Positions 5,262 to 19,411 of a DNA stretch of 64,000 nucleotides are shown one piece after another. The notes under the pieces were generated by a model. It made no database searches, was not told the origin of the DNA, and saw only the letters and a list, made by a program, of their open reading frames with translations. This DNA is from Acuticoccus sp. I52.16.1 (lineage in GTDB: Bacteria; Pseudomonadota; Alphaproteobacteria; Rhizobiales; Amorphaceae). Within the stretch, counting starts at the first letter, position 1. Each line of letters begins with the position of its first letter. The DNA lies in contig NZ_CP094828.1 of NCBI RefSeq assembly GCF_022865125.1, positions 3,713,219 through 3,777,218 on the forward strand, given 5' to 3'. The position numbers and the translations under genes are program-made.

Positions 5262-6599
5262 TCAGCCGGCCACCGTCTCGCGCACCGGCTGCGCGGTCTC
5301 GGCCGTCGCCGCCCACCAGGCCGCGTAGGCCTCGATCAGGCCGGCCTTGATGGCGAACTCGCGCCGGTCCAGCGCGTCGAGTGCGGCGCGGACGGCCGGC
5401 AGCAAGGTGCGGTCCTCGGTGCGCGACAGCTTGAGGAGATCGTAGTTCAGCGCGCGCAGGCCCTGGATGAGCGCCTCGATCTCGTCGCACCACGCCTCGA
5501 AGCTTGCGGAGTCCCGTTCGAGAGCGCGCCAGAACACCGCGAAGCCGTGCTCGTAGGCGTACTTGCGCACCAGCAGGATGGGAAACTCCGCGACCGCCGC
5601 CTCCAGCGCCGCGAGGCTGCCGCCGATCCCCGAGTGAACGTCGAGGATGCGCCGCAGGGCTTCGATCAGCGGGTTGCGGTCCCGCTCGATGCACGCCTCG
5701 AAATAGGCGGCGAGATCGTCGCGCCGCGGCGGGTGGGCCGTGCTGCGGTCGATCAGGTAGCCGCCTTCGACGCTCGGCTGCTCGATCGCGTCGACGACGT
5801 CCGCGGCGGGCATGCGCCCCTCCCAGCGGTAGTCGACGTCACGGACCAGCCAGGTGGCCGGATCCTCGGTGCGTTCCAGCAGCAGGTAGTGGGGGAAGGG
5901 GTTCTTGTTGAAGATGTTCTCCCGCCCCGGCAGGTGGAACATGTCCAGCATCACCATCACGTCCTCGTGCGCGGTGCGGGCGGCGAGAAGGCGCTTCATG
6001 ATGGCGGTGTTCTCGGCCTTGGTGCGCGCTTCGTCGTACCAGGCGCGCACGGTGCAGCCGTAGAGCCGCTCGGCCCATGTGCGGAAGAATTCCTGCCGCA
6101 TCCCTGGCTCGTGGTACTTTACGAACGAGCCGTCGCCGGTGATGAAAGGCGCATCCCAGACGCCGAAATAAAGCGGGCGCTGGTCGATCCCCGGCGCTCG
6201 CTTCATCGCATCCGCCACGCAGCTCACGAAGCAGTGGACCTTGATGTCGACATAGTCCTCGCCGTGGACGCCCTCGCGCCGGGCGGCCTCGTCGGCGGCG
6301 TTGTGGGCGACGATCTCGGCGGGCGGGGCGGCGGCCTCCTCCGGCACGGCGAGGAAGAGGTCGGCGAATTCCTCCACCGTCTCGGCGGCGCGGGTGGCGA
6401 TCGCGGCCTCCGGCGCGACGAGGCCGTGGTCGGTCTCCAGGAAGAGGAGGAGGTTCATCGTCATCAGCGAGTCGAGCGCCAGGTCCGGGCCGAGCCGGGC
6501 CTGCGGCGCGAACGCACCCACGTGACGGTTGTTCAACCGCTCGGTCAGGACGGTGCGGATGGCGGCGATGATCTCGGTCTTGGTCATGGTCATGGTCAT
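5262..6599 (-). CDS. Aryl carrier protein fused to AsbE-like condensing enzyme (AsbD-AsbE type)
   Basis: 445 residues. Residues 1-80 are an acyl/aryl carrier domain with the phosphopantetheine serine in LALDSLM (Ser44 from the ATG at 6599). Residues of about 90-445 match the AsbE-type protein of petrobactin synthesis, which joins the carrier-bound 3,4-dihydroxybenzoyl group to spermidine. In Bacillus, AsbD and AsbE are separate proteins; here no stop separates them. The start is ambiguous. Three in-frame ATGs occur at 6599, 6593 and 6587 within an ATGACC repeat, and a GTG at 6605 overlaps the upstream stop. The gene follows the AsbBC fusion with 2 bp between them and is the last gene of the operon. 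The exact amine and aryl substrates are inferred from the family, not seen. Confidence 0.8.
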   Translation of the reverse strand: MTMTMTKTEIIAAIRTVLTERLNNRHVGAFAPQARLGPDLALDSLMTMNLLLFLETDHGLVAPEAAIATRAAETVEEFADLFLAVPEEAAAPPAEIVAHNAADEAARREGVHGEDYVDIKVHCFVSCVADAMKRAPGIDQRPLYFGVWDAPFITGDGSFVKYHEPGMRQEFFRTWAERLYGCTVRAWYDEARTKAENTAIMKRLLAARTAHEDVMVMLDMFHLPGRENIFNKNPFPHYLLLERTEDPATWLVRDVDYRWEGRMPAADVVDAIEQPSVEGGYLIDRSTAHPPRRDDLAAYFEACIERDRNPLIEALRRILDVHSGIGGSLAALEAAVAEFPILLVRKYAYEHGFAVFWRALERDSASFEAWCDEIEALIQGLRALNYDLLKLSRTEDRTLLPAVRAALDALDRREFAIKAGLIEAYAAWWAATAETAQPVRETVAG

Positions 6600-6605
6600 G
6601 GTCAC
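6585..6605 (-). repeat. Hexamer repeat spanning the start codon of the carrier-AsbE gene
   Basis: On the minus strand, GTGACC is followed by three ATGACC units (the last truncated to ATG at 6587-6585). This gives four possible in-frame start codons (6605, 6599, 6593, 6587). A GGAG lies about 5 bases before the GTG and 11 before the first ATG. Repeat-number change would add or remove Met-Thr pairs without shifting the frame. Confidence 0.8.
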
Positions 6606-9598
6606 GCGTGCTCCAGCTCGCCGGCGGCGAATGCGGCGGCGACCTCGCGGCGGTTGATCTTGCCGTTCGCCTGGCGCGGCACGGTGGGCACGCGCGCGGC
6701 GACGGCGGGCATCTGGTGGCCGGCGAGGCGTTCCGCGCACCATGCCCGCAACGCCGCCTCGTCGACCTCGGCGGCCGCGTAGAGGAGACCGACACGCTCG
6801 CCCGCGAACGGATCGGCGAGGCGGAAGGCGACCGCGTCGCTCACGCCCGGCATCGCCATCACCGCGTCCTCCACCTCCTTGGGGAAGACGTTGAGCCCGG
6901 CGACGTTGATCGTGTCGTCGAGCCGCGAGAGGTAGACGAGCATGCCCTCGGCCGTGCGGTAGCCGAGATCGCGCGTCTCCACCGTGCGCCAGGGTGTCTC
7001 GATGGCGATCTCCACCGGTGCCGCCTCGCTCCCGTCCACCAGCAGGCGGTGGTGGGGCAGCACGGCGCCGATGTCCGCCGGCCGCTCGGTCTGCGGGTTG
7101 ACCGAAATGACCCCCGTTTCGGAGGTCCCGTATTGCTGGAAGAGATGGGTGACGCGGGCGCGGATCGCATCGAACCAGGGCGCCGGCAGCAGCGTGCCGG
7201 AGGTCATCGCGGCATGGATGCGCTCGCCCTCCGGCAGGAGGCGGGCCAGCGTGTGGAGCACGGCCGGTGAGGCATAGAGCACCGGCCGCTCCACCTCGGC
7301 GAGGCGGCGCAGCAGCTGGCGCGGGTTGTCCGGCCGTACCACCACCGGCACCATCCCGCGCTTCAGTCCGGCAAGGGTGCCGCAGATGAGCCCGTAGGAA
7401 TGCGTCGTCGGTGAGGCGACGACCGGGGTCATCCCCTCCGGTGCGGTGAACGCGGCGACGTAGGCGGCCAGCTCGTCCTCGACCTCGCCGAAGTCGCGGG
7501 CGATGGGCTTGGGTGCGGCGGTCGTCCCGGACGTCATCTGAACGAGGTGGCCGGGGGCCAGCGGCACGGCCGGAGCCGGCAGCCGCTCGGGCGCGGTGTT
7601 GCCGAAGAGGAGGTGCGTGCAGCCGGCGGCCACGGCCGTGCGCCGTGCCGCCTCGCGCGGGCTCGCCGGGTGGATCGGCACCACACTCGCCCCCGCCTCG
7701 CGGATGGCGAAGAAGGCGGCGAGCCACACCGCAGGGTCCTCGTGGCACACGGCGTAGCTCATCTGCGGGTCGAACGGCAGCGCCGCCCCGCCGGCGAGAT
7801 CGCCGAGGCGGGCGCGCAGGCTGTCGCGGTCGTAGCGGCGACCGTCGATGTCGATCATGCCATGGCTCTCCGGCTTGGTGTGAAACGGGTTGGGGACAGT
7901 GTGGGCGGGGAGGTCGTCCGGCCGCATCGGGTCCACCGGCGTCAGCTTCTGCGACACGAGCGACTCGACGCGGATCTCGGGCGCCGCGTGCGCCAGCCGC
8001 GCCAGCCGCCCCTCCAGCCCCTCGGCGGTGGCATGGGCTGTGACGTGCCGGCGTACGCGTTCCCAGAACTCGCGCTCCGGCAGCCCGTAGGCGGCCTCGA
8101 AGAGATGCGAAACCTCGGTGAGATTGAAGACGAAGAGCGTGTCCATGACGCACCAGCGCAGCTCTTCGACGTCGCGCAGCCAGAAGAAGAGATCGGGCGT
8201 GGGGTCGCGGAAGTGGGGGTCGAGGGCGCCGAAATCGGGCGGTGGCGGACCGGCGGACAGATAGTCCTCGACGTACTCGATGCTGTCGTGGAAGTCGCGC
8301 AGGACGGCGCGCACGGGCCAGCCTCGGTTCAGCACCAGGACCATGTTCTGCCCGTGTGCCTCGGTCGCGATCCCATGCGCCACGAGGAGATGCCAGACCG
8401 GCAGCACCGCGACCTCGATGAGCCGGTCGACCCAGCGGTCGACGCCGTAGGGGCGCACGAAGTCGTCGACGAACGGGCGGCCGTCGTTCTCCACACTCAT
8501 CAGCGCGGTGAGCGGGACGGCCCGCTCGTCCGGCCCCAACGTCGCCTCGACGCTGGTGCGCCACAGCGCCGAGGCGACCTCCGCGCGCGGACCGTCGCGG
8601 TCGAGGATCGCGCCGGCGTGCTCCTCGAGGATCGTCAGCGGCAGCCGCTCGGCGAAGGCGGGGTCGCGCGCGACGATCGCGGCGAGCCAGGCGGAGAGGG
8701 CGGGCGCGCTGGCGACGGTGTGCGGCGGCAGGATGCGGCGCATCGTGGTGTTGGTGACGTCGAGCGGCAGCTTGACGTTGGGCGCGGCCGGCCGGTCGAC
8801 GTTGAAGACCGTGCGCAGCGACTGCCCGGCGACGTAGCGCTCGCCGATCTCGCCCAGCGGCAGGATGTCGCCGCGGGCGATATCGTCCGCCAGGTGGGGG
8901 GCGAGGCGCGTCCACTGGAACGGGTGGACCGGCAGCAGCGCTGGCTCGTCCGCCCGCCAGCCGGCCCGGCGCGCGGCATCGAGGGCGCGCGCGTGGCCGG
9001 CCTCGCCGATGGCGCGGGCGGCGAAGCCGGGTGCCGCCGCATCGCCCGAGAGCGTCACCCGGTCGCGCTGGACGGCCAGCCAGACGAGGCGAAAAGGCGG
9101 CGCGCCCTGGCCGTGGCGGACGTGATCCTCGGCACCGAAGCCGGTGCGGGAGCGGAACGAGGGGTGGTAGGGGTGGCCGTCGTCGAGCGCGCCTTCCAGC
9201 GCGGCGAAGCCGGCGGCGCGGCGTGGCACGGCGGACGCCCCGGCGAGGTCCGGCACGGCGATCTGCTCGCTGGCGGCGACGGTTGCGTCCAGCTCGGCGA
9301 GGAAGCCGCGCAGCTTGGGCGAGCCGCCGCCGACATCGTGGACCAACGCCGCCAGGGTGCCGACCGTCCAGCGCCCGCCGGCGTTCATCTGCACGCTGCC
9401 GGGCCGCAGCCGCGGACGCCCGAACGGTCCCACCCGGCCGAACGCACGCCACCGTCGCCCCGTCGCCTCCCAGGCGAAGACGGTCTCGAACGCGCCCTCG
9501 GTGCGCTGCACGTCGACCATGCGCTCGAAGATCAGCGCGGCGGCGAGTTGGCGCAAAACGCGCTCCTGCGGTCGCGCGCGGTTCTCAAACGGCAGCAT
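6602..9598 (-). CDS. NIS siderophore synthetase fused to aryl-AMP ligase (AsbB-AsbC type)
   Basis: 998 residues, ATG at 9598. Residues 1-580 are an IucA/IucC-type NRPS-independent siderophore synthetase with LLPVHPFQW, KLPLDVTNTTMRRIL and EAHGQNMVLVLNRG. It resembles AsbB, which condenses citrate with an acylated polyamine using ATP. Residues 581-998 are an adenylate-forming ligase with TSGTTAAPK (A3), QYGTSETG (A5), the hinge DDTINVAGLNVFPKEVED (A8) and RQANGKINRREV carrying the A10 lysine. This fits AsbC, which activates 3,4-dihydroxybenzoate and loads it on the carrier. The reading frame is open throughout, so this is a real fusion. An internal Met581 (7858) has a GGAGAG about 7 bases upstream, so a free ligase may also be made. 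Coupled upstream to the AsbA-like gene (32 bp) and downstream to the carrier-AsbE gene. Confidence 0.85.
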   Translation of the reverse strand: MLPFENRARPQERVLRQLAAALIFERMVDVQRTEGAFETVFAWEATGRRWRAFGRVGPFGRPRLRPGSVQMNAGGRWTVGTLAALVHDVGGGSPKLRGFLAELDATVAASEQIAVPDLAGASAVPRRAAGFAALEGALDDGHPYHPSFRSRTGFGAEDHVRHGQGAPPFRLVWLAVQRDRVTLSGDAAAPGFAARAIGEAGHARALDAARRAGWRADEPALLPVHPFQWTRLAPHLADDIARGDILPLGEIGERYVAGQSLRTVFNVDRPAAPNVKLPLDVTNTTMRRILPPHTVASAPALSAWLAAIVARDPAFAERLPLTILEEHAGAILDRDGPRAEVASALWRTSVEATLGPDERAVPLTALMSVENDGRPFVDDFVRPYGVDRWVDRLIEVAVLPVWHLLVAHGIATEAHGQNMVLVLNRGWPVRAVLRDFHDSIEYVEDYLSAGPPPPDFGALDPHFRDPTPDLFFWLRDVEELRWCVMDTLFVFNLTEVSHLFEAAYGLPEREFWERVRRHVTAHATAEGLEGRLARLAHAAPEIRVESLVSQKLTPVDPMRPDDLPAHTVPNPFHTKPESHGMIDIDGRRYDRDSLRARLGDLAGGAALPFDPQMSYAVCHEDPAVWLAAFFAIREAGASVVPIHPASPREAARRTAVAAGCTHLLFGNTAPERLPAPAVPLAPGHLVQMTSGTTAAPKPIARDFGEVEDELAAYVAAFTAPEGMTPVVASPTTHSYGLICGTLAGLKRGMVPVVVRPDNPRQLLRRLAEVERPVLYASPAVLHTLARLLPEGERIHAAMTSGTLLPAPWFDAIRARVTHLFQQYGTSETGVISVNPQTERPADIGAVLPHHRLLVDGSEAAPVEIAIETPWRTVETRDLGYRTAEGMLVYLSRLDDTINVAGLNVFPKEVEDAVMAMPGVSDAVAFRLADPFAGERVGLLYAAAEVDEAALRAWCAERLAGHQMPAVAARVPTVPRQANGKINRREVAAAFAAGELEHA

Positions 9599-9630: not shown

Positions 9631-11391
9631 TCAGTGCGAATAGGCATGGGCGCGTGTCGCTGCTGCGGCTGAGCCGGCTTGGAAGAGGACGTTGGGACCC
9701 TGGCCGTAGAGCGGGTATCCATGAGCACCGCCCAGCTCGTCGACGTCGAAGAGGCGCGCGCCGAGGTTGCCTTTCATCGTGATCGTCGGTCGCTCCAACA
9801 GGCGGCGGCAGAAGCGCCGGCCGGCGCCGTCGCACTCGCCCGCCAGCGTTTCGATACGCCGGTGCAGCATCGCCAGAAGCCTCGCCTCGTCGGCCAGCCC
9901 GTCGCGCCCCAGCCGCGCGATGACCGCGAACACCTGGTTGACGACGAGGTAGTAGGCGAAGCGGTCGTTGATCTCGGCCTCGTCGAAGTAAAGCTCGTCG
10001 ATCCGGCTCGCCTCCGGGATCGCCGTCTCCAGCCGCGGCCGGTAGCTCTGCGCGAGATAGTAGCCCTGGTTGTCGCGGTAGAAGGACGCGCGCGGGCGGC
10101 CGCCGGCGACGTCGAGCAGGGAGTTCTGCTGGTGCGCCTCCAGGGCGATGCCGGCGATATCGTAGAGCCGCACCAGCGGGACGAAGGCGCACTCCAGATA
10201 GTCGGCGAACCAACTCGTGCCGGCGTCGGGTCCGGGCGTCGCGCCGACCAGTGTCTCCATCAGCGAAGGTTCTCCCGGCAGCGGATTGCCGGTCAGGGCG
10301 GCGACAGTCACGGCCGACCCCGCGCGCGGGCCGCGGAACGGGTTCTGCCGCAGGATGGTCTCGAACCCGCTCTCGGGCCGGCCGGGGATGGTGACGGTGG
10401 CATACGCGGTGTCGAGCAGGATGCGCAGCCGGGGGAGGCGGGCCAGCACGTTGGTCCGGCGGAAGAAGCGGGCGATCGCGACCCCCGCGGCAAGCTCGTG
10501 CCGCCGGTTGCGCCGCACCGAATTGGTGATGCGCACCGGGAGGCTGAACTTCAGCATGAAGGGCGCACGCTCGCTGTAGACGGTGCGCATGGAGGACGTG
10601 CCGCTGAACGCCGGCCCCAGCGGCCCCAGCGGTCGCAGCGCGCCGCAGGTCTTCAGCGCGTCGACCGCGGGGTCGAGCTGTAGCGCCTCGGCCTGGAGGG
10701 GGTGCATGAGAATGAGCCGCTCGCCGGCGCGCAGCTGGGGGCGTGCCATGTGCGCCATGCACCGCGTGGCGCTGTAGCGACCCGCCGACCCCTCCTCGAC
10801 GAGGGAGCCCTGCGCGGCGAACCCGACCAGCTGGAACGCGCCCCCGGCCTCCGGCCCGTAGACCTCGCGCTGCCAGTCGGTCACGCCCTGCATGCTCTTC
10901 GGTGTCGGGTGGAAGCTGTGGCCGAAGACGATCGACTGCTCGGCGGCGATGAAACCGGTGGCGCGCGGGCGGGCGGCGTGGCGCGCCACGTTGGCGGCGA
11001 CCGCCTGGCAGCTCAGCAGCACGCGCAGGAAGAGTTCCACCTCGCGTGCCCGAGTGGCGGTGCAGCGCGTGCCCGCCCCGACCCGGCGATAGGCCTCGCG
11101 CAGCAGCCCGGCCACGGCGTCGAGCGGCTCCACCGGCAGCCAGCGGCCCCAAGGCGCGTCGAGCCCGCGCCGCCACACGCCGCCGAAGCGGTGCGGCCCG
11201 CAGAGCGAGCGCGCCTCGACCTTGGCCCGCAGCACCGCGCCCTCGCCCTCGAGGCACCATTCGACCCAGTCCGCCCCGCGGTCGTCGGCGTCGCGCCCCG
11301 GGTCGATCTCGCGCAGATAGCAATTGGCAAATGTCTCGAAGGTCGCCCGCTCGGCGATCGCGAAGGCGTCTTTCTGAGTGATCGCCACCAT
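9631..11391 (-). CDS. NIS siderophore synthetase (AsbA-like, IucA/IucC family)
   Basis: 586 residues. The ATG at 11391 was chosen because the following sequence (AFAIAERATFETFANCYLRE) aligns with the beginning of AsbA-type proteins. In-frame starts at 11448 and 11463 only add a segment without family resemblance. Family motifs seen are HSFHPTPKSMQG, HPLQAEAL, KFSLPVRITNSVRRN and LEAHQQNSLLDV, in the usual order of the ATP- and citrate-binding fold. AsbA-type enzymes condense citrate with a polyamine (spermidine in petrobactin), and AsbB adds the second arm. This is the first gene of the minus-strand operon and is divergent from the receptor gene. Its promoter region contains two perfect palindromes. 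Confidence 0.88.
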   Translation of the reverse strand: MVAITQKDAFAIAERATFETFANCYLREIDPGRDADDRGADWVEWCLEGEGAVLRAKVEARSLCGPHRFGGVWRRGLDAPWGRWLPVEPLDAVAGLLREAYRRVGAGTRCTATRAREVELFLRVLLSCQAVAANVARHAARPRATGFIAAEQSIVFGHSFHPTPKSMQGVTDWQREVYGPEAGGAFQLVGFAAQGSLVEEGSAGRYSATRCMAHMARPQLRAGERLILMHPLQAEALQLDPAVDALKTCGALRPLGPLGPAFSGTSSMRTVYSERAPFMLKFSLPVRITNSVRRNRRHELAAGVAIARFFRRTNVLARLPRLRILLDTAYATVTIPGRPESGFETILRQNPFRGPRAGSAVTVAALTGNPLPGEPSLMETLVGATPGPDAGTSWFADYLECAFVPLVRLYDIAGIALEAHQQNSLLDVAGGRPRASFYRDNQGYYLAQSYRPRLETAIPEASRIDELYFDEAEINDRFAYYLVVNQVFAVIARLGRDGLADEARLLAMLHRRIETLAGECDGAGRRFCRRLLERPTITMKGNLGARLFDVDELGGAHGYPLYGQGPNVLFQAGSAAAATRAHAYSH

Positions 11392-11518
11392 TTTCACCAA
11401 AGTCTTGGGCCAGTATCGGACATTCGATCCATCCCTACTGACCCCCATCGGGAGGCGGGACACTCGATCCGAGGCCCCGACCGGGGCGATATCAATTAAA
11501 CTAAACTCTACGAGTCAA

Positions 11519-11589: not shown

Positions 11590-11723
11590 GTGTGTGGGTC
11601 ACAGTGCTGCCACAACCCCATGATCCAATGGGCCAAAAGTGGAGGGTTCTGCTATCTCTCCCCGCATAACTCGGTAAGTGGACTATCCAAGTCAATATTA
11701 TGGTCTTGGTGAAGGGTCCTCCG

Positions 11724-13781
11724 ATGATGCGTCATTCGCTCTACCTGCTGACGGCGTCTGTGAGCATGTTTCCAATCATGGCGTATGCGCAGAGCGGCAG
11801 TGTGATTCAGCTCGACCCGGTGACCATCGGGCAAACCGAGCCGGGCGACGAGAGCGCCGAGGGCACCGGCACCACCGGCTCGAACGACGCGGCCGCCGGG
11901 CCGGACGGAGACGGCGACGCGCTCGCCGGCGATCCGGGTGCCCCGGGCAGCTTCACAGTCGGTCCCGGCGAGATCGCCCGCAACAACCCGACCAACCTGC
12001 AGGAGCTGTTCGTCGACGAGCCGACCGTCACCGTCGGATCGTCGATCCCGATGTCGCAGAAGATCTTCGTCCAGGGTGTCGAGGAGCCGAACCTCGCCGT
12101 CACGATCGACGGCACGCGGCAGAACAACAAGGTCTTCCACCACAACGCCACGACGCTGATCGACACCGACCTTCTGAAGGCGGTGCGGGTCGACCCGGGC
12201 GTCGCGCCGGCGGACGCGGGGCCGGGGGCGCTCGGCGGTGCGATCGCGTTCGAGACCAAGGACGTCGACGATATCCTCGCCGAGGGAAAGATGTACGGCG
12301 GGCAGGTCACCGGCGAGTACCAGACCAACGGCGACATCTTCGCCACCAGCGGCCAGCTCGCCGGCCGCTATGCCGGGTTCGAGGCGCTGCTGTTCGGCAA
12401 ATGGGCCACCGGCGACCTCATGCAGGACGGCAACGGGGACGATATCATCGGCTCGGGCACCAGCCTTCTGTCGGGCCTCGGCAAGGTCGCCTACGAGGCG
12501 GAGTCGGGTGACCGCATCGAAGCCGCGTTCGAGATCGTCAACGACGACGACGCGCGTCCTTACCGCGCCGATATCGGCCAGATCATCGGCGGGCGCCCGG
12601 TGCCCCTGACGCGCGACTACGACCTGACCCGCCAGAACTATACCCTGACCTACACCGACGAGACCCCGCGCGATTTCTGGGATCCGAAGGTGCAGCTCGG
12701 CTTCAGCGTCACCGACGTCGACCTGACCGAGCCGGAGCAGACCATCTCCGGCACGACGCAGTCGCTCAACGGCCGCGCGCAGAACACGATCCGCGGCGAG
12801 TTCGGCTCGATCGTCTTCGGCTCCGACTTCTACGTCGACGAAGCCGAGCTCGACTATCGCTACCTCCTCGACCGCAACTTCGACGAATCGGGGGCCGAGC
12901 GGGCGCAGAACGTCGGCTTCTACACCCAGGCCCGGCTCGACATCACCGACCGTGTGCGCGCCTCCGGTGGCGCGCGCGTCGACGTCCAGCACTTCGAGGG
13001 GATCGACGGCACCGAGGTCACCAATGCCGGCCCGTCGCTCAACCTGTCGGGCGAGGTGGACGTGACGAGCTTCCTCACCGCCTACGCCGGCGTCTCCCAC
13101 GTGTGGGCCGGCATTCCCCTCGCCGAAAACTTCATCATGAACCCCAACTGGATCTACGACACGCAGATCGAGCCGACGACGTCCGACAACGTGGTCGCGG
13201 GGCTGCGGGCGCACTACCAGGGCTTGCGCGCCGGGGCGAAGGTGTTCCAGACGAAGATCTACAACGCGCGCACGCCGGACTACTCCATCGGCCCCGCCTT
13301 CCAGCGGGATATCCGCACCCGCGGTTACGAGCTGTCGGCCGGGTACGACAATTACGGCCTCTCGACCAACGTCGCCTACGCCTTCATCGACAGCGAGATC
13401 GACGGCAATCCGGGCGACAGCTATGTCGGCCGCTACCTCACCGTGCCGGTGGGGCACGTGCTGACGGGGTCGGCCTCCTATCTCTACGCGCCGTGGGGCG
13501 TGCGGGTCGGCGCCAACATCGAGGTCGCGTTCGAGTACGACGACACCTACGACGTCGACCTCGACGCGCCGGGCGAGCCGCTGCCGGGCTACCAGGTGGT
13601 CAACGCCTTCGCCGAGTGGACGCCGGTGCAGTTTCCCAATCTGACCGTGCGTGCCGAGGTGAACAACCTGTTCGACGAGGAGTACGCCGCGCGCGGCACC
13701 TACGGCACCGAGTTCGGCTCGGTGGTGCCGCTCTACGAGCCGGGCCGCTCGTTCCTCTTCAAGGCTGCGGCGCGCTTTTGA
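11724..13781 (+). CDS. TonB-dependent outer-membrane receptor, probably for the ferric siderophore
   Basis: 685 residues. The ATG at 11724 has GAAGGG upstream and is followed by a signal peptide (MMRHSLYLLTASVSMFPIMAYAQ). After it comes a TonB-box-like stretch (VIQLDPVTI) and then an acidic, Gly/Asp-rich linker of about 40 residues. The plug domain contains IFVQGVEEPNLAVTIDGTRQ, then GALGGAIAFETKD. A 22-stranded beta-barrel region follows, ending in the terminal Phe typical of outer-membrane proteins (AAARF). It is divergent from the NIS synthetase operon, so the likely ligand is the ferric form of that product. The plug also resembles haem-receptor plugs, so haem is an alternative. The next gene starts within its stop codon. 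Confidence 0.88.
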   Translation: MMRHSLYLLTASVSMFPIMAYAQSGSVIQLDPVTIGQTEPGDESAEGTGTTGSNDAAAGPDGDGDALAGDPGAPGSFTVGPGEIARNNPTNLQELFVDEPTVTVGSSIPMSQKIFVQGVEEPNLAVTIDGTRQNNKVFHHNATTLIDTDLLKAVRVDPGVAPADAGPGALGGAIAFETKDVDDILAEGKMYGGQVTGEYQTNGDIFATSGQLAGRYAGFEALLFGKWATGDLMQDGNGDDIIGSGTSLLSGLGKVAYEAESGDRIEAAFEIVNDDDARPYRADIGQIIGGRPVPLTRDYDLTRQNYTLTYTDETPRDFWDPKVQLGFSVTDVDLTEPEQTISGTTQSLNGRAQNTIRGEFGSIVFGSDFYVDEAELDYRYLLDRNFDESGAERAQNVGFYTQARLDITDRVRASGGARVDVQHFEGIDGTEVTNAGPSLNLSGEVDVTSFLTAYAGVSHVWAGIPLAENFIMNPNWIYDTQIEPTTSDNVVAGLRAHYQGLRAGAKVFQTKIYNARTPDYSIGPAFQRDIRTRGYELSAGYDNYGLSTNVAYAFIDSEIDGNPGDSYVGRYLTVPVGHVLTGSASYLYAPWGVRVGANIEVAFEYDDTYDVDLDAPGEPLPGYQVVNAFAEWTPVQFPNLTVRAEVNNLFDEEYAARGTYGTEFGSVVPLYEPGRSFLFKAAARF

Positions 13782-14080
13782 TGGCCGGCGATCCCGCGCG
13801 CTCGGTGGCGACGGTGGAGACCGCGTCGGCGCGGCGCTATGTCGGCCAGCTCGCCAAGCACTTCGCCCACAAGATCGAGGTGGAGACGGGCGAGAACCAC
13901 GCCGTGCTGCGCTTCGAGTGCGGCACCTGCTGGATGCGCGCCGAGGAGGGGCGGCTCGACCTCATGGTCGAGAGCCCTGACCTCGACCAGCGGGCGGAGA
14001 CCGAGGCGGTGGTCGAGCGCCATCTGATGGTGTTCGCCTTCCGCGAAACCCTGGAGCCGCTCGCCTGGCGCCCGGCATAG
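13781..14080 (+). CDS. DUF2218 family protein
   Basis: 99 residues, starting at the ATG that overlaps the receptor stop (TGATG), so translation is coupled to the receptor. It matches the DUF2218 family: small cytoplasmic proteins with a conserved HFAHKIEV segment, here followed by RFECGTCWM. The family is often found beside siderophore receptor and reductase genes. A role in handling the imported siderophore or iron is inferred from context; no enzymatic activity is established. No signal peptide is present. Confidence 0.82.
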   Translation: MAGDPARSVATVETASARRYVGQLAKHFAHKIEVETGENHAVLRFECGTCWMRAEEGRLDLMVESPDLDQRAETEAVVERHLMVFAFRETLEPLAWRPA

Positions 14081-16750: not shown

Positions 16751-19411
16751 ATGGCCGATAAATTTTTCCGCGGCACCGACCGAAACGACCGGATCATCGG
16801 CGAGGACACCGACGACTTCATCCGAGGCTTCGCCGGCAACGACACACTGGAAGGGCGTGGCGGCAACGACGAGTTGATCGGTGATGAAGGCAACGACTCC
16901 CTCATCGGCGACACCGGCGACGACACCATGCGCGGTGGCGACGGCAACGACGAGATGGAGTGGAACAACGGCGACGGCAACGACCTGATGGACGGCGGCG
17001 ACGGCCGCGACACCGCCGAGGTCAACGGCGCCGAAGATGCCGGCGACGCCTTCGAGGTGCGGTCCATCCCGCGCGGTGCCTTCTTCGAGCGTACCAACCT
17101 CGGCCCGTTCGACATCGTCATCGAGAACACCGAGTTCCTGGAGGTGAACGGCCTCGGCGGCAACGACACGATCGACGCCAGCGCGCTGCAGCCGGGTGAA
17201 TTGCGCCTCCAGGCGTTCGGCGGCGACGGCAACGACCTCCTCATCGGCAGCGACGGTGCGGACCGCTTCGTCGGCGGCGACGGCATCGACGTGGTGCGTG
17301 CCGGCCTCGGCAACGATCTGATGATCTGGAACGACGGCGACGATTCGGACCGTCTCAACGGCGGGCGCGGGTTCGACATCGCGGTCGTCAACGGCTCCGA
17401 CCGCAACGACAGCTTCGAGGTCAGCTCCGTCGGCGACGTCGTCTTCGTCGAGCGCAACGCGCTGCGCCGCTTCGGGCAGGAAGACGCCACCATCAACATC
17501 GTCAACACCGACAGGCTGATCCTCAACGGCCTCGACGGCAAGGACACGCTGGATGCCAGCGGCCTACAGGCCAGTCTGATCGAGGTCGAGGCGAACGGCG
17601 GCGACGGCAACGACCTCCTGATCGGCAGCGAGGGCGACGACACCCTCGTCGGCGACCGCGGCAACGACGTCATGCGCGGCGGCGACGGCGACGACACGAT
17701 GATCTGGAACAACGGCGACGGGTCGGACCTGATGAACGGCGGCTACGGTGAGGACACCGCCGTCGCCAACGGCGCCAACAACGACGGCGACGTGTTCGTG
17801 ATCCGCGGTGCCGGCGAAAACGTCGACTTCCAGCGCACCAACTTCGGCCGCTTCTCGCTCGACATCCGCAACACGGAAATCCTCGAGGTCAACGGCCTCG
17901 GCGGTGACGACACCGTCAACGCCAGCGACCTCGGCGCCGGGCTGATCGCGTTGCGCGCGTCCGGCGGCGACGGCGACGACTTCCTGATCGGCAGCGAAGG
18001 GGACGACACGCTGATCGGCGACCGCGGCGACGACACCATGCGCGGCGGTGACGGCGACGACACGATGGTGTGGAACAACGGCGACGGCTCCGACACCATG
18101 AACGGCGGCGCCGGCGACGACACCGCCGAGGTCAACGGCTCGAACGACGCGGGCGACGTCTTCGAGGTGCGCTCCAACGGCGACAACGTCCTCTTCGAGC
18201 GGACCAACTTCGGCCCCTTCTCGCTCGACATCCGCGAGACCGAGACGCTGGACCTCAACGGCCTCGGCGGCGACGACACGATCGACGCCAGCGGCCTCGA
18301 CAACGGCGCCGCGGTGGTCGATGCGTCGGGCGGCGAGGGCGACGACGTGCTGACGGGCAGCGCGGGCGACGACACGCTCTCGGGCGACGCCGGCGACGAC
18401 ACGCTGGTCGGCTTCCGCGGCGACGACACCATGGAGGGCGGCGCGGGCGACGACCTGATGGTGTGGAACAACGGCGACGGCTCCGACGTGATGGACGGCG
18501 GCGAGGGCATCGACACCGCGCAGGTGAACGGCTCGGGCAATGCCGGGGACGAGTTCGTCGTGCGCACCAACGGCGAGAACGTCTTCTTCGAGCGTGTGAA
18601 CTTCGGCAACTTCTCGCTCGACATCCGCAACACCGAGATCCTGGAGCTGAACGGCGGCGGCGGCGACGACACGATGGACGCGCGCGACCTCGAGGCCGGG
18701 CGGGTCGCACTCACCCAGTCGGGCGGCGAGGGTGACGATCAGCTCATCGGCAGCCAGGGCGACGACCTCATCCAGGGCGATGCCGGCAACGACACCCTCG
18801 TCGGCTTCCGCGGCAGCGATACGATGGAGGGCGGCGACGGCGACGACCTGATGGTGTGGAACAACGGCGACGGCTCCGACACGATGGACGGCGGCGCCGG
18901 CGACGACACCGCCCAGGTCAACGGCGCCGACGGCGCGGGCGATGCGTTCGAGGTGGTCTCGGTCGGCGGCGAGGTGACGTTCAACCGCACCAACCTCGTG
19001 CCCTTCTCGATCGAGATCGACAACACCGAGACGATCGAGCTGAACGGCCTCGGCGGCGACGACACCATCGACGCGCGCGACCTTGGCGCGACCGACCCGG
19101 CCTTCCGCGGCGCGGGCGGCGCGGGCGACGATCAGATCTTCGGCGGCAACGGCGACGACACGATCGACGGTGGCGCCGGCAACGACACGCTCTTCGGCAA
19201 CGACGGCGCGGACATCTTCGTCTTCGCCGAGGGGGCGGACGAGATCACCGACTTCCAGGACGGGATCGACCTGATCGACGCCGCCGGCTTCGAGGACGCG
19301 CTCATCGCCCAGGTGGGCGACGACGTTGTCATCGACTTCGGCCTCGGCAACACGCTGACGCTGAAGGACCAGCTCGTCGACGATATCGGCGCCGGCGACT
19401 TCCTCGTCTGA
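16751..19411 (+). CDS. RTX-type calcium-binding protein with six tandem modules
   Basis: 886 residues with GGAGG 7 bases upstream of the ATG. There is no Sec signal peptide. The protein is made of Gly/Asp-rich RTX nonapeptides (GGxGxDxLx) alternating with a conserved beta module. Each repeat runs from WNNGDGSD through GGxGxDTAxVNG and FERTNFGPFSLDIRNTE to LNGLGGDDTIDA. Six modules begin near 16960, 17329, 17702, 18068, 18461 and 18854, with a spacing of about 122-131 residues. The C-terminus ends in RTX units and a hydrophobic-acidic tail (LTLKDQLVDDIGAGDFLV) that looks like a type I secretion signal. It is probably secreted and folds on binding extracellular Ca2+. No HlyB/HlyD genes are nearby. 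It lacks any catalytic domain. Confidence 0.9.
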   Translation: MADKFFRGTDRNDRIIGEDTDDFIRGFAGNDTLEGRGGNDELIGDEGNDSLIGDTGDDTMRGGDGNDEMEWNNGDGNDLMDGGDGRDTAEVNGAEDAGDAFEVRSIPRGAFFERTNLGPFDIVIENTEFLEVNGLGGNDTIDASALQPGELRLQAFGGDGNDLLIGSDGADRFVGGDGIDVVRAGLGNDLMIWNDGDDSDRLNGGRGFDIAVVNGSDRNDSFEVSSVGDVVFVERNALRRFGQEDATINIVNTDRLILNGLDGKDTLDASGLQASLIEVEANGGDGNDLLIGSEGDDTLVGDRGNDVMRGGDGDDTMIWNNGDGSDLMNGGYGEDTAVANGANNDGDVFVIRGAGENVDFQRTNFGRFSLDIRNTEILEVNGLGGDDTVNASDLGAGLIALRASGGDGDDFLIGSEGDDTLIGDRGDDTMRGGDGDDTMVWNNGDGSDTMNGGAGDDTAEVNGSNDAGDVFEVRSNGDNVLFERTNFGPFSLDIRETETLDLNGLGGDDTIDASGLDNGAAVVDASGGEGDDVLTGSAGDDTLSGDAGDDTLVGFRGDDTMEGGAGDDLMVWNNGDGSDVMDGGEGIDTAQVNGSGNAGDEFVVRTNGENVFFERVNFGNFSLDIRNTEILELNGGGGDDTMDARDLEAGRVALTQSGGEGDDQLIGSQGDDLIQGDAGNDTLVGFRGSDTMEGGDGDDLMVWNNGDGSDTMDGGAGDDTAQVNGADGAGDAFEVVSVGGEVTFNRTNLVPFSIEIDNTETIELNGLGGDDTIDARDLGATDPAFRGAGGAGDDQIFGGNGDDTIDGGAGNDTLFGNDGADIFVFAEGADEITDFQDGIDLIDAAGFEDALIAQVGDDVVIDFGLGNTLTLKDQLVDDIGAGDFLV

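Follow-up and report, generated by a model that had tools for sequence, protein, structure and literature searches.

When two overlapping genes of an operon become one, what happens to the start of the second? The question is raised by a 64,000-nucleotide stretch of the Acuticoccus sp. I52.16.1 genome (contig NZ_CP094828.1, positions 3,713,219 to 3,777,218 of the forward strand; hereafter the window), in which homologues of the petrobactin genes asbB and asbC form a single gene that carries, at its junction, an ATG preceded by a Shine-Dalgarno (SD)-like GGAGAG. This ATG is homologous to the asbC start of relatives in which the two genes are separate. From sequence comparison we propose, with moderate confidence, that one gene of this kind may yield two products, the joined chain and the second enzyme on its own, with the old start still in use.

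Results

A synthetase and a ligase joined end to start

As the original prediction had it, a synthetase and a complete ligase share one frame, with zero internal stops over its 998 residues (Table 1). Pfam places IucA_IucC (residues 131-367), FhuF (388-534), AMP-binding (685-860) and AMP-binding_C (908-980) in the product, all above gathering score. PRK08308, an NCBIfam acyl-CoA synthetase model that presumably covers AsbC, matches residues 581-987 with 470.8 bits (below its cut-off of 513), and because its first model position falls on residue 581, the ligase looks complete from Met581. The closest solved structure, AsbB (3to3), aligns over residues 10-574 (286 bits); together, the start of the one match and the extent of the other indicate that the two proteins are joined end to start and that the ligase retains its own first Met. 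The internal ATG and the GGAGAG, with their 7-base spacer, likewise lie where they had been predicted. The fused gene is present as a single copy in the whole genome. An AlphaFold2 model of the full chain, made from a six-sequence alignment, was poor (mean pLDDT 55.5) and was not used.

The junction start across fused genes

The domain pair was found in other genomes, where the original prediction had proposed to look for it: among 107 deduplicated loci with both parts, 26 are fused and 81 are not. An automatic count gives 27 fused of 107 through a start-placement artifact at L056, here counted as non-fused; loci of the window's own genome (L002-L008, L011-L015) and synthetase-only matches (L027, L143-L148) are excluded, and, of 132 relatives retrieved with a fused-gene alignment, the best 80 make up the named loci. 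A universal fusion devoid of the internal site, which would have spoken against the prediction, is the opposite of what is seen, since 81/107 loci are non-fused and the junction ATG is kept in 26/26 distinct fused genes.

The linker codons in front of this ATG vary. Of the eight at positions -8 to -1, none is invariant in Acuticoccus (3 genes), one in the Methylobacterium group (15 aligned genes) and one in Shinella (5 genes), with identities among the aligned fused genes of 74-93% (n = 15) in the Methylobacterium group and 74-89% (n = 5) in Shinella. At -3, Gly is encoded by GGA in 15/15 aligned Methylobacterium-group genes (17/18 when L053, L129 and L155, left out of the codon alignment, are added, the GGA being present in two of these three) and in 5/5 Shinella genes. 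This column is the sole invariant GGA column among 49 conserved Gly columns in the Methylobacterium group and 47 in Shinella, and GGA accounts for 80/1251 Gly codons (6%) in the former and 29/344 (8%) in the latter. By a rougher yardstick that is fairer to a mere remnant, 1 of the 20 columns holding any GGA is invariant in the Methylobacterium group and 1 of 10 in Shinella. Because the -3 GGA is invariant amid variable neighboring codons, the site looks as if it has been held since fusion in these two clades, and the internal start looks maintained in both.

Pairing with the anti-SD sequence points the same way: the mean energy is -6.82 kcal/mol at fused junctions versus -7.19 kcal/mol at 79 split asbC starts. 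Within each gene, the share of in-frame positions that pair as well as the junction is 1-2% for Shinella, 3% for the G209 pair, 4-22% for Methylobacterium, 10% for L155 and 6%, 7.5% and 49% for the three Acuticoccus genes. Positions folded as weakly as the junction make up 3-8% in Acuticoccus and a median of 2% in Methylobacterium, compared with 8% at the 79 split starts. When pairing and weak folding are taken jointly, none of the other in-frame ATGs in the 26 fused genes equals the junction, and the in-frame positions that do amount to 0.31% at most.

In the window gene itself, the pairing of -6.6 kcal/mol, equaled at 7.5% of in-frame positions, is modest taken alone; jointly with weak folding it is equaled at 1/957 in-frame positions and at 0/15 other in-frame ATGs. 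The gene's own start scores below the internal site on both measures (pairing -5.9 versus -6.6 and folding -12.5 versus -9.4 kcal/mol). With three genes only, in which the ATG is kept in 3/3 and a good ribosome site in 2/3, the internal start is probably kept in Acuticoccus as well; we regard the case for this genus as good, not closed.

Several observations weigh against a maintained start. L155 lacks the -3 GGA, and the Shinella folding signal is weak (a median of 20% of positions are as weakly folded). The Acuticoccus gene L009 has a poor ribosome site (-2.4 kcal/mol, equaled at 49% of positions), the three Acuticoccus genes have zero invariant GGA columns, and a synonymous-codon null gives 0.216 for the window gene and 0.949 for L009. 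Much of the weak folding in Acuticoccus accompanies a linker of low G+C, with 22% of shuffles as weakly folded in the window gene and 30% and 34% in the other two. Conservation of Met is not peculiar to the junction, since 6/13 majority-Met columns are invariant in Acuticoccus, 7/13 in the Methylobacterium group and 12/17 in Shinella, and folding of the protein, instead of initiation, may account for the retained Met at the junction. Finally, ribosomes elongating from upstream may block internal starts.

The AsbD-AsbE fusion, present in 102/105 loci by a lenient test, provides a contrast: it has no Met at the position of the Bacillales AsbE start. Some in-frame ATG occurs within the 35 codons preceding AsbE homology in 32/102 of these fusions, immediately before it in 19 of them. 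Our search of the listings of one literature library found no published mention of an internal start in mllBC-type genes, nor anything pertinent on internal starts in fused enzymes.

A frameshift, probably across an ATGA overlap

In 50/81 non-fused loci, asbB and asbC overlap by an exact ATGA, in which the asbB stop TGA is read in another frame than asbC. Counted from a conserved Asn in the AsbB tail, the asbC ATG lies at a distance of 2 mod 3 in 56/81 non-fused loci, of 0 in 14 and of 1 in 8 (3 give no distance). In fused genes the distance is 0 mod 3 in 26/26: 33 bases for Acuticoccus, 39 for Shinella and for the G209 pair, and 42 or 78 for the remainder. The window junction reads ATGATC, so that the TGA is intact and bypassed; the Shinella junction, ATGCTG, is without it. 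The changed phase and the TGA surviving out of frame therefore point to a frameshifting indel, not a lost stop, and on this comparison an indel fused the genes before the three Acuticoccus species split. That their ancestor had an ATGA overlap is suggested by tree neighbors, in a part of the tree without resolution.

The recent loss of a stop, which the original prediction had offered as one origin of the fusion, was rejected: the former stop does not appear in the asbB frame as a sense codon, the phase has gone from 2 to 0 mod 3, the TGA is retained, and the fusion occurs in three Acuticoccus genomes whose proteins are 64-73% identical. An assembly error of one genome was also rejected, as two further Acuticoccus genomes share both the fusion and the linker length. 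An out-of-frame ATG GCA TGA spans the window junction (7855-7863, minus strand) and terminates on the bypassed TGA.

Distribution and number of origins

Within Acuticoccus the gene is found in 3/8 genomes, one per species, and is fused in all three, each with the 33-base linker; the other genomes of the family have it in 0/2. The same-genus genome G007 and A. yangtzensis JL1095 have identical loci. In the order sample 15/397 genomes reach E 1e-60, G271 among them by its synthetase alone, and in the class sample 3/385 match, the window's own included. Of 111 Methylobacterium/Methylorubrum genomes 34 match; B and C share a fused frame in 15 and are separate in 9, and 10 have the synthetase only. 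In Rhizobiaceae 11/394 genomes pass E 1e-200: 5 are fused, and in 6 the B and C parts are in frame with one stop separating them. Since this threshold is biased toward fused genes, and the named loci were gathered with a fused-gene alignment, the proportion of fused genes given here is no census. Among plasmid records 73 match; of the 30 matches listed, 3 are in one piece, 2 of them annotated as two genes.

In a quick tree (98 rows by 971 columns) the fused genes fall into three separate regions and require at least five changes of state; five are also required by a careful tree of 41 hand-picked rows, the bootstrap of which had not settled. Left out of the quick tree were L020 and L036 (frame broken inside asbB) and the short L045, L053, L100 and L136-L139, and the ligase part of L056 is nearly empty in it because of the start-placement artifact. 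In L020 (near 1510-1556) and L036 (near 1501-1507), both split relatives, the asbB frame changes at a similar place, around residues 465-468 and near a C run, which reflects either assembly error or decay.

A single origin of every fused gene is rejected (one-clade test, p 1e-45), as is a clade of Acuticoccus and Methylobacterium-group fused genes (p 4e-5 in the quick tree; the careful tree also separates them). On a clade of Acuticoccus and Shinella the two trees differ: the quick one does not reject it (p 0.105), the careful one does (p 0.0186). Two origins of the fusion are thus secure, and three likely.

Split Methylobacterium genes cluster with fused Methylorubrum genes within the fused group (support 83/96, careful tree), and their asbC starts at the same ATG as the fused junction. 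In Aureimonas pseudogalii (L114), a member of a mostly fused clade, asbB and asbC are split by a stop 20 bases before the same ATG. The fused state may therefore revert to split, perhaps in L114; it should be noted that a clade of the fused Methylobacterium group plus L114 without the split members is not rejected in a smaller set (p 0.145), so that gain and loss are not distinguishable.

Comparison with known systems

The original prediction described AsbB and AsbC as separate proteins in petrobactin pathways. This holds for three Bacillales loci (L057-L059), in which AsbD and AsbE are separate too, unlike in Acuticoccus, and for most relatives; it does not hold throughout, as the fused form has been published as MllBC. 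Among the methylolanthanin genes of Methylorubrum extorquens AM1, mllBC joins asbB to asbC and mllDE joins asbD to asbE; according to the authors, a fusion like mllBC had not previously been seen in characterized homologues (PMC11317620). Methylolanthanin is given there as the product of M. extorquens clusters of this kind, while in M. extorquens PA1 the same kind of cluster has been tied to rhodopetrobactin B in a 2026 paper whose main text does not contain the words "fused" or "fusion" (PMC13251462).

Like MllBC (META1p4133), the fused protein of the window unites an AsbB-like NIS synthetase with an AsbC-like adenylation domain in a single chain. In both clusters an AsbD-AsbE fusion comes next, and a TonB receptor, a DUF2218 protein and a homologue of AsbA accompany the core genes. 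The fused protein of the window belongs to a separate clade from MllBC and has a linker of 33 instead of 42 bases. The domains follow the same order as Bacillus-type petrobactin AsbB and AsbC. The Rhodopseudomonas rhodopetrobactin cluster resembles the locus in having asbA, asbB, asbC and an asbDE fusion (Table 1 of PMC11317620; our L096) and differs in its unfused asbB and asbC, which overlap as ATGA in the five Rhodopseudomonas loci L083, L086, L095, L096 and L101. By its sequence, then, the locus is an MllBC-type fusion that arose apart from that of the Methylobacterium group.

Neighboring genes

Table 1. Coordinates of the fused gene, its junction and neighboring genes in the window
Feature	Positions	Strand	Evidence
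asbB-asbC (mllBC-type) fusion gene	6602..9598	minus	single open frame, 998 aa; TGA stop 6604-6602; Pfam, NCBIfam and PDB matches
AsbB-like NIS synthetase part and linker, residues 1-580	7859..9598	minus	IucA_IucC, FhuF; AsbB 3to3 alignment
AsbC-like adenylate-forming aryl ligase part, residues 581-998	6602..7858	minus	PRK08308 from residue 581; AMP-binding, AMP-binding_C
Internal ATG (codon of Met581), homologous to the start of separate asbC genes	7856..7858	minus	ATG at junction in 26/26 distinct fused genes
GGAGAG, SD-like site, 7-base spacer to internal ATG	7866..7871	minus	sequence; anti-SD energy -6.6 kcal/mol
TGA of ATGA overlap, out of frame with asbB here	7855..7857	minus	ATGA overlap in 50/81 non-fused loci
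asbD-asbE (mllDE-type) fusion gene	5262..6605	minus	NF005798 (AsbD) at 7-83, 52 bits, below cut-off 100; DUF6005 at 120-439, 421.7 bits
asbA-like NIS synthetase gene	9631..11463	minus	IucA_IucC, FhuF; upstream of fusion; start codon provisional
TonB-dependent receptor, divergent from asb genes	11700..13781	plus	PF00593, PF07715
DUF2218 protein (mllG-like)	13781..14080	plus	PF09981, 86 bits

In petrobactin biosynthesis, AsbC activates the aryl acid and the AsbD part carries it, and AsbE and two NIS synthetases join the pieces; the gene set of the window fits the assembly of a metallophore from citrate, polyamine and aryl units. The asbA-like gene is 50% identical to the gene at the mllA position in Methylorubrum thiocyanatum (L046). 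Relatives of the TonB receptor adjoin the cluster in two Acuticoccus loci and one Shinella locus, and relatives of both the receptor and the DUF2218 protein lie within 20 kb of the cluster in the two other Acuticoccus genomes. The GTG start of asbDE overlaps the TGA stop of the fused gene as GTGA. At this start (6582-6605, minus strand) GTGACC is followed by three ATGACC units, offering one GTG and three in-frame ATGs as possible starts; the repeat is missing from the other two Acuticoccus asbDE genes.

Unlike the mll cluster, that of Acuticoccus has no nearby homologue of asbF (3,4-dihydroxybenzoate synthase): none was found in the window or within 20 kb of the cluster in the two other Acuticoccus genomes, in a search whose controls (Shinella, Pararhizobium and Rhodopseudomonas loci) do match. 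The best match in the whole genome (28% identity, E 3.7e-4), encoded away from the cluster, is a QuiC-type dehydroshikimate dehydratase (688 bits, below the model cut-off of 1200), which could supply 3,4-dihydroxybenzoate. A further difference is that tblastn gave zero matches at E 1e-3 to an mllH-like GNAT acetyltransferase in the window, the remaining genome not having been searched.

The same genome encodes an XoxF-type methanol dehydrogenase (L160, G000:C1:975951-977594), whose best PDB match, 6oc5, is lanthanide dependent. It reads EWDFDG at the motif position, which we take to be where lanthanide enzymes carry a second Asp. A lanthanide role for the locus is possible. Elsewhere in the window (16751-19411, plus strand), the list of open reading frames has an 886 aa protein with repeated glycine-aspartate stretches, presumably RTX-like.

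Discussion

The locus would be the biosynthetic core (asbA, asbBC, asbDE) of a metallophore of the petrobactin/rhodopetrobactin/methylolanthanin type. In the scheme that we favor, an indel in the asbB tail would have put asbB in frame with asbC across the ATGA overlap, giving a full chain predicted to act both as a citrate-amide (NIS) synthetase and as an aryl-adenylating ligase, while the old asbC ribosome site and ATG would still recruit some ribosomes to make a free 418-residue ligase. The purpose may be that extra ligase loads the AsbD-AsbE carrier, used more than once per molecule. The original prediction had raised such a double output as one of two options; comparative evidence of a kept start speaks for it, and the poor site of L009 speaks against it.

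The most serious competitor is that fusion is all that happened, in which case the ATG and the GGAGAG would be disused relics of the asbC start and the cell would make one bifunctional chain. Split relatives, with their frequent ATGA overlap, begin asbC at the homologous site, which is in keeping with such relics, as are the weak site of L009 and single-gene synonymous nulls that lie mostly at 0.05-0.2. Relics are harder to reconcile with an ATG retained in every fused gene despite a fast-changing linker, and with a -3 GGA that is held against codon bias in 17/18 and 5/5 genes of two separate clades. The split Methylobacterium genes inside the fused group are also most simply explained if the start stayed usable, even though a tree placing them outside is not rejected. 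We judge this account unlikely, while according it real weight.

A second possibility is that the GGAG and the weakly folded linker form a translational pause that helps the synthetase to fold before the ligase is made, with no separate product. An SD-like sequence in frame at a domain boundary is what speaks for it; pausing by internal SD-like sites is, however, disputed, and a pause explains neither an ATG kept at start-like spacing in 26/26 genes nor its weakly folded surroundings, which makes it improbable in our view. That the two genes were joined by the recent loss of a stop, or only through a frameshift or assembly error, is hardly credible: nothing favors it for this gene, and the equal linkers and divergent proteins of three Acuticoccus genomes and the TGA persisting out of frame contradict it. 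Elsewhere stop loss is conceivable, given six Rhizobiaceae loci with B and C in frame around one stop. Returning to the reading in which the old start is still used, a bolder extension is that selection repeatedly favors a two-product gene, with several fusions in Alphaproteobacteria, the start kept each time, and refission by frameshift possible since the start never decays; we offer it tentatively, as having slightly less than an even chance.

These genes offer a worked example of the way in which overlapping genes of an operon merge into a single protein: through a minor frameshift at their ATGA overlap, on more than one occasion, and apparently with the second gene's start retained. Should the free ligase be produced, database entries for fused genes can conceal a second product, and the enzyme stoichiometry of metallophore pathways, lanthanide-linked methylolanthanin included, would need re-examination.

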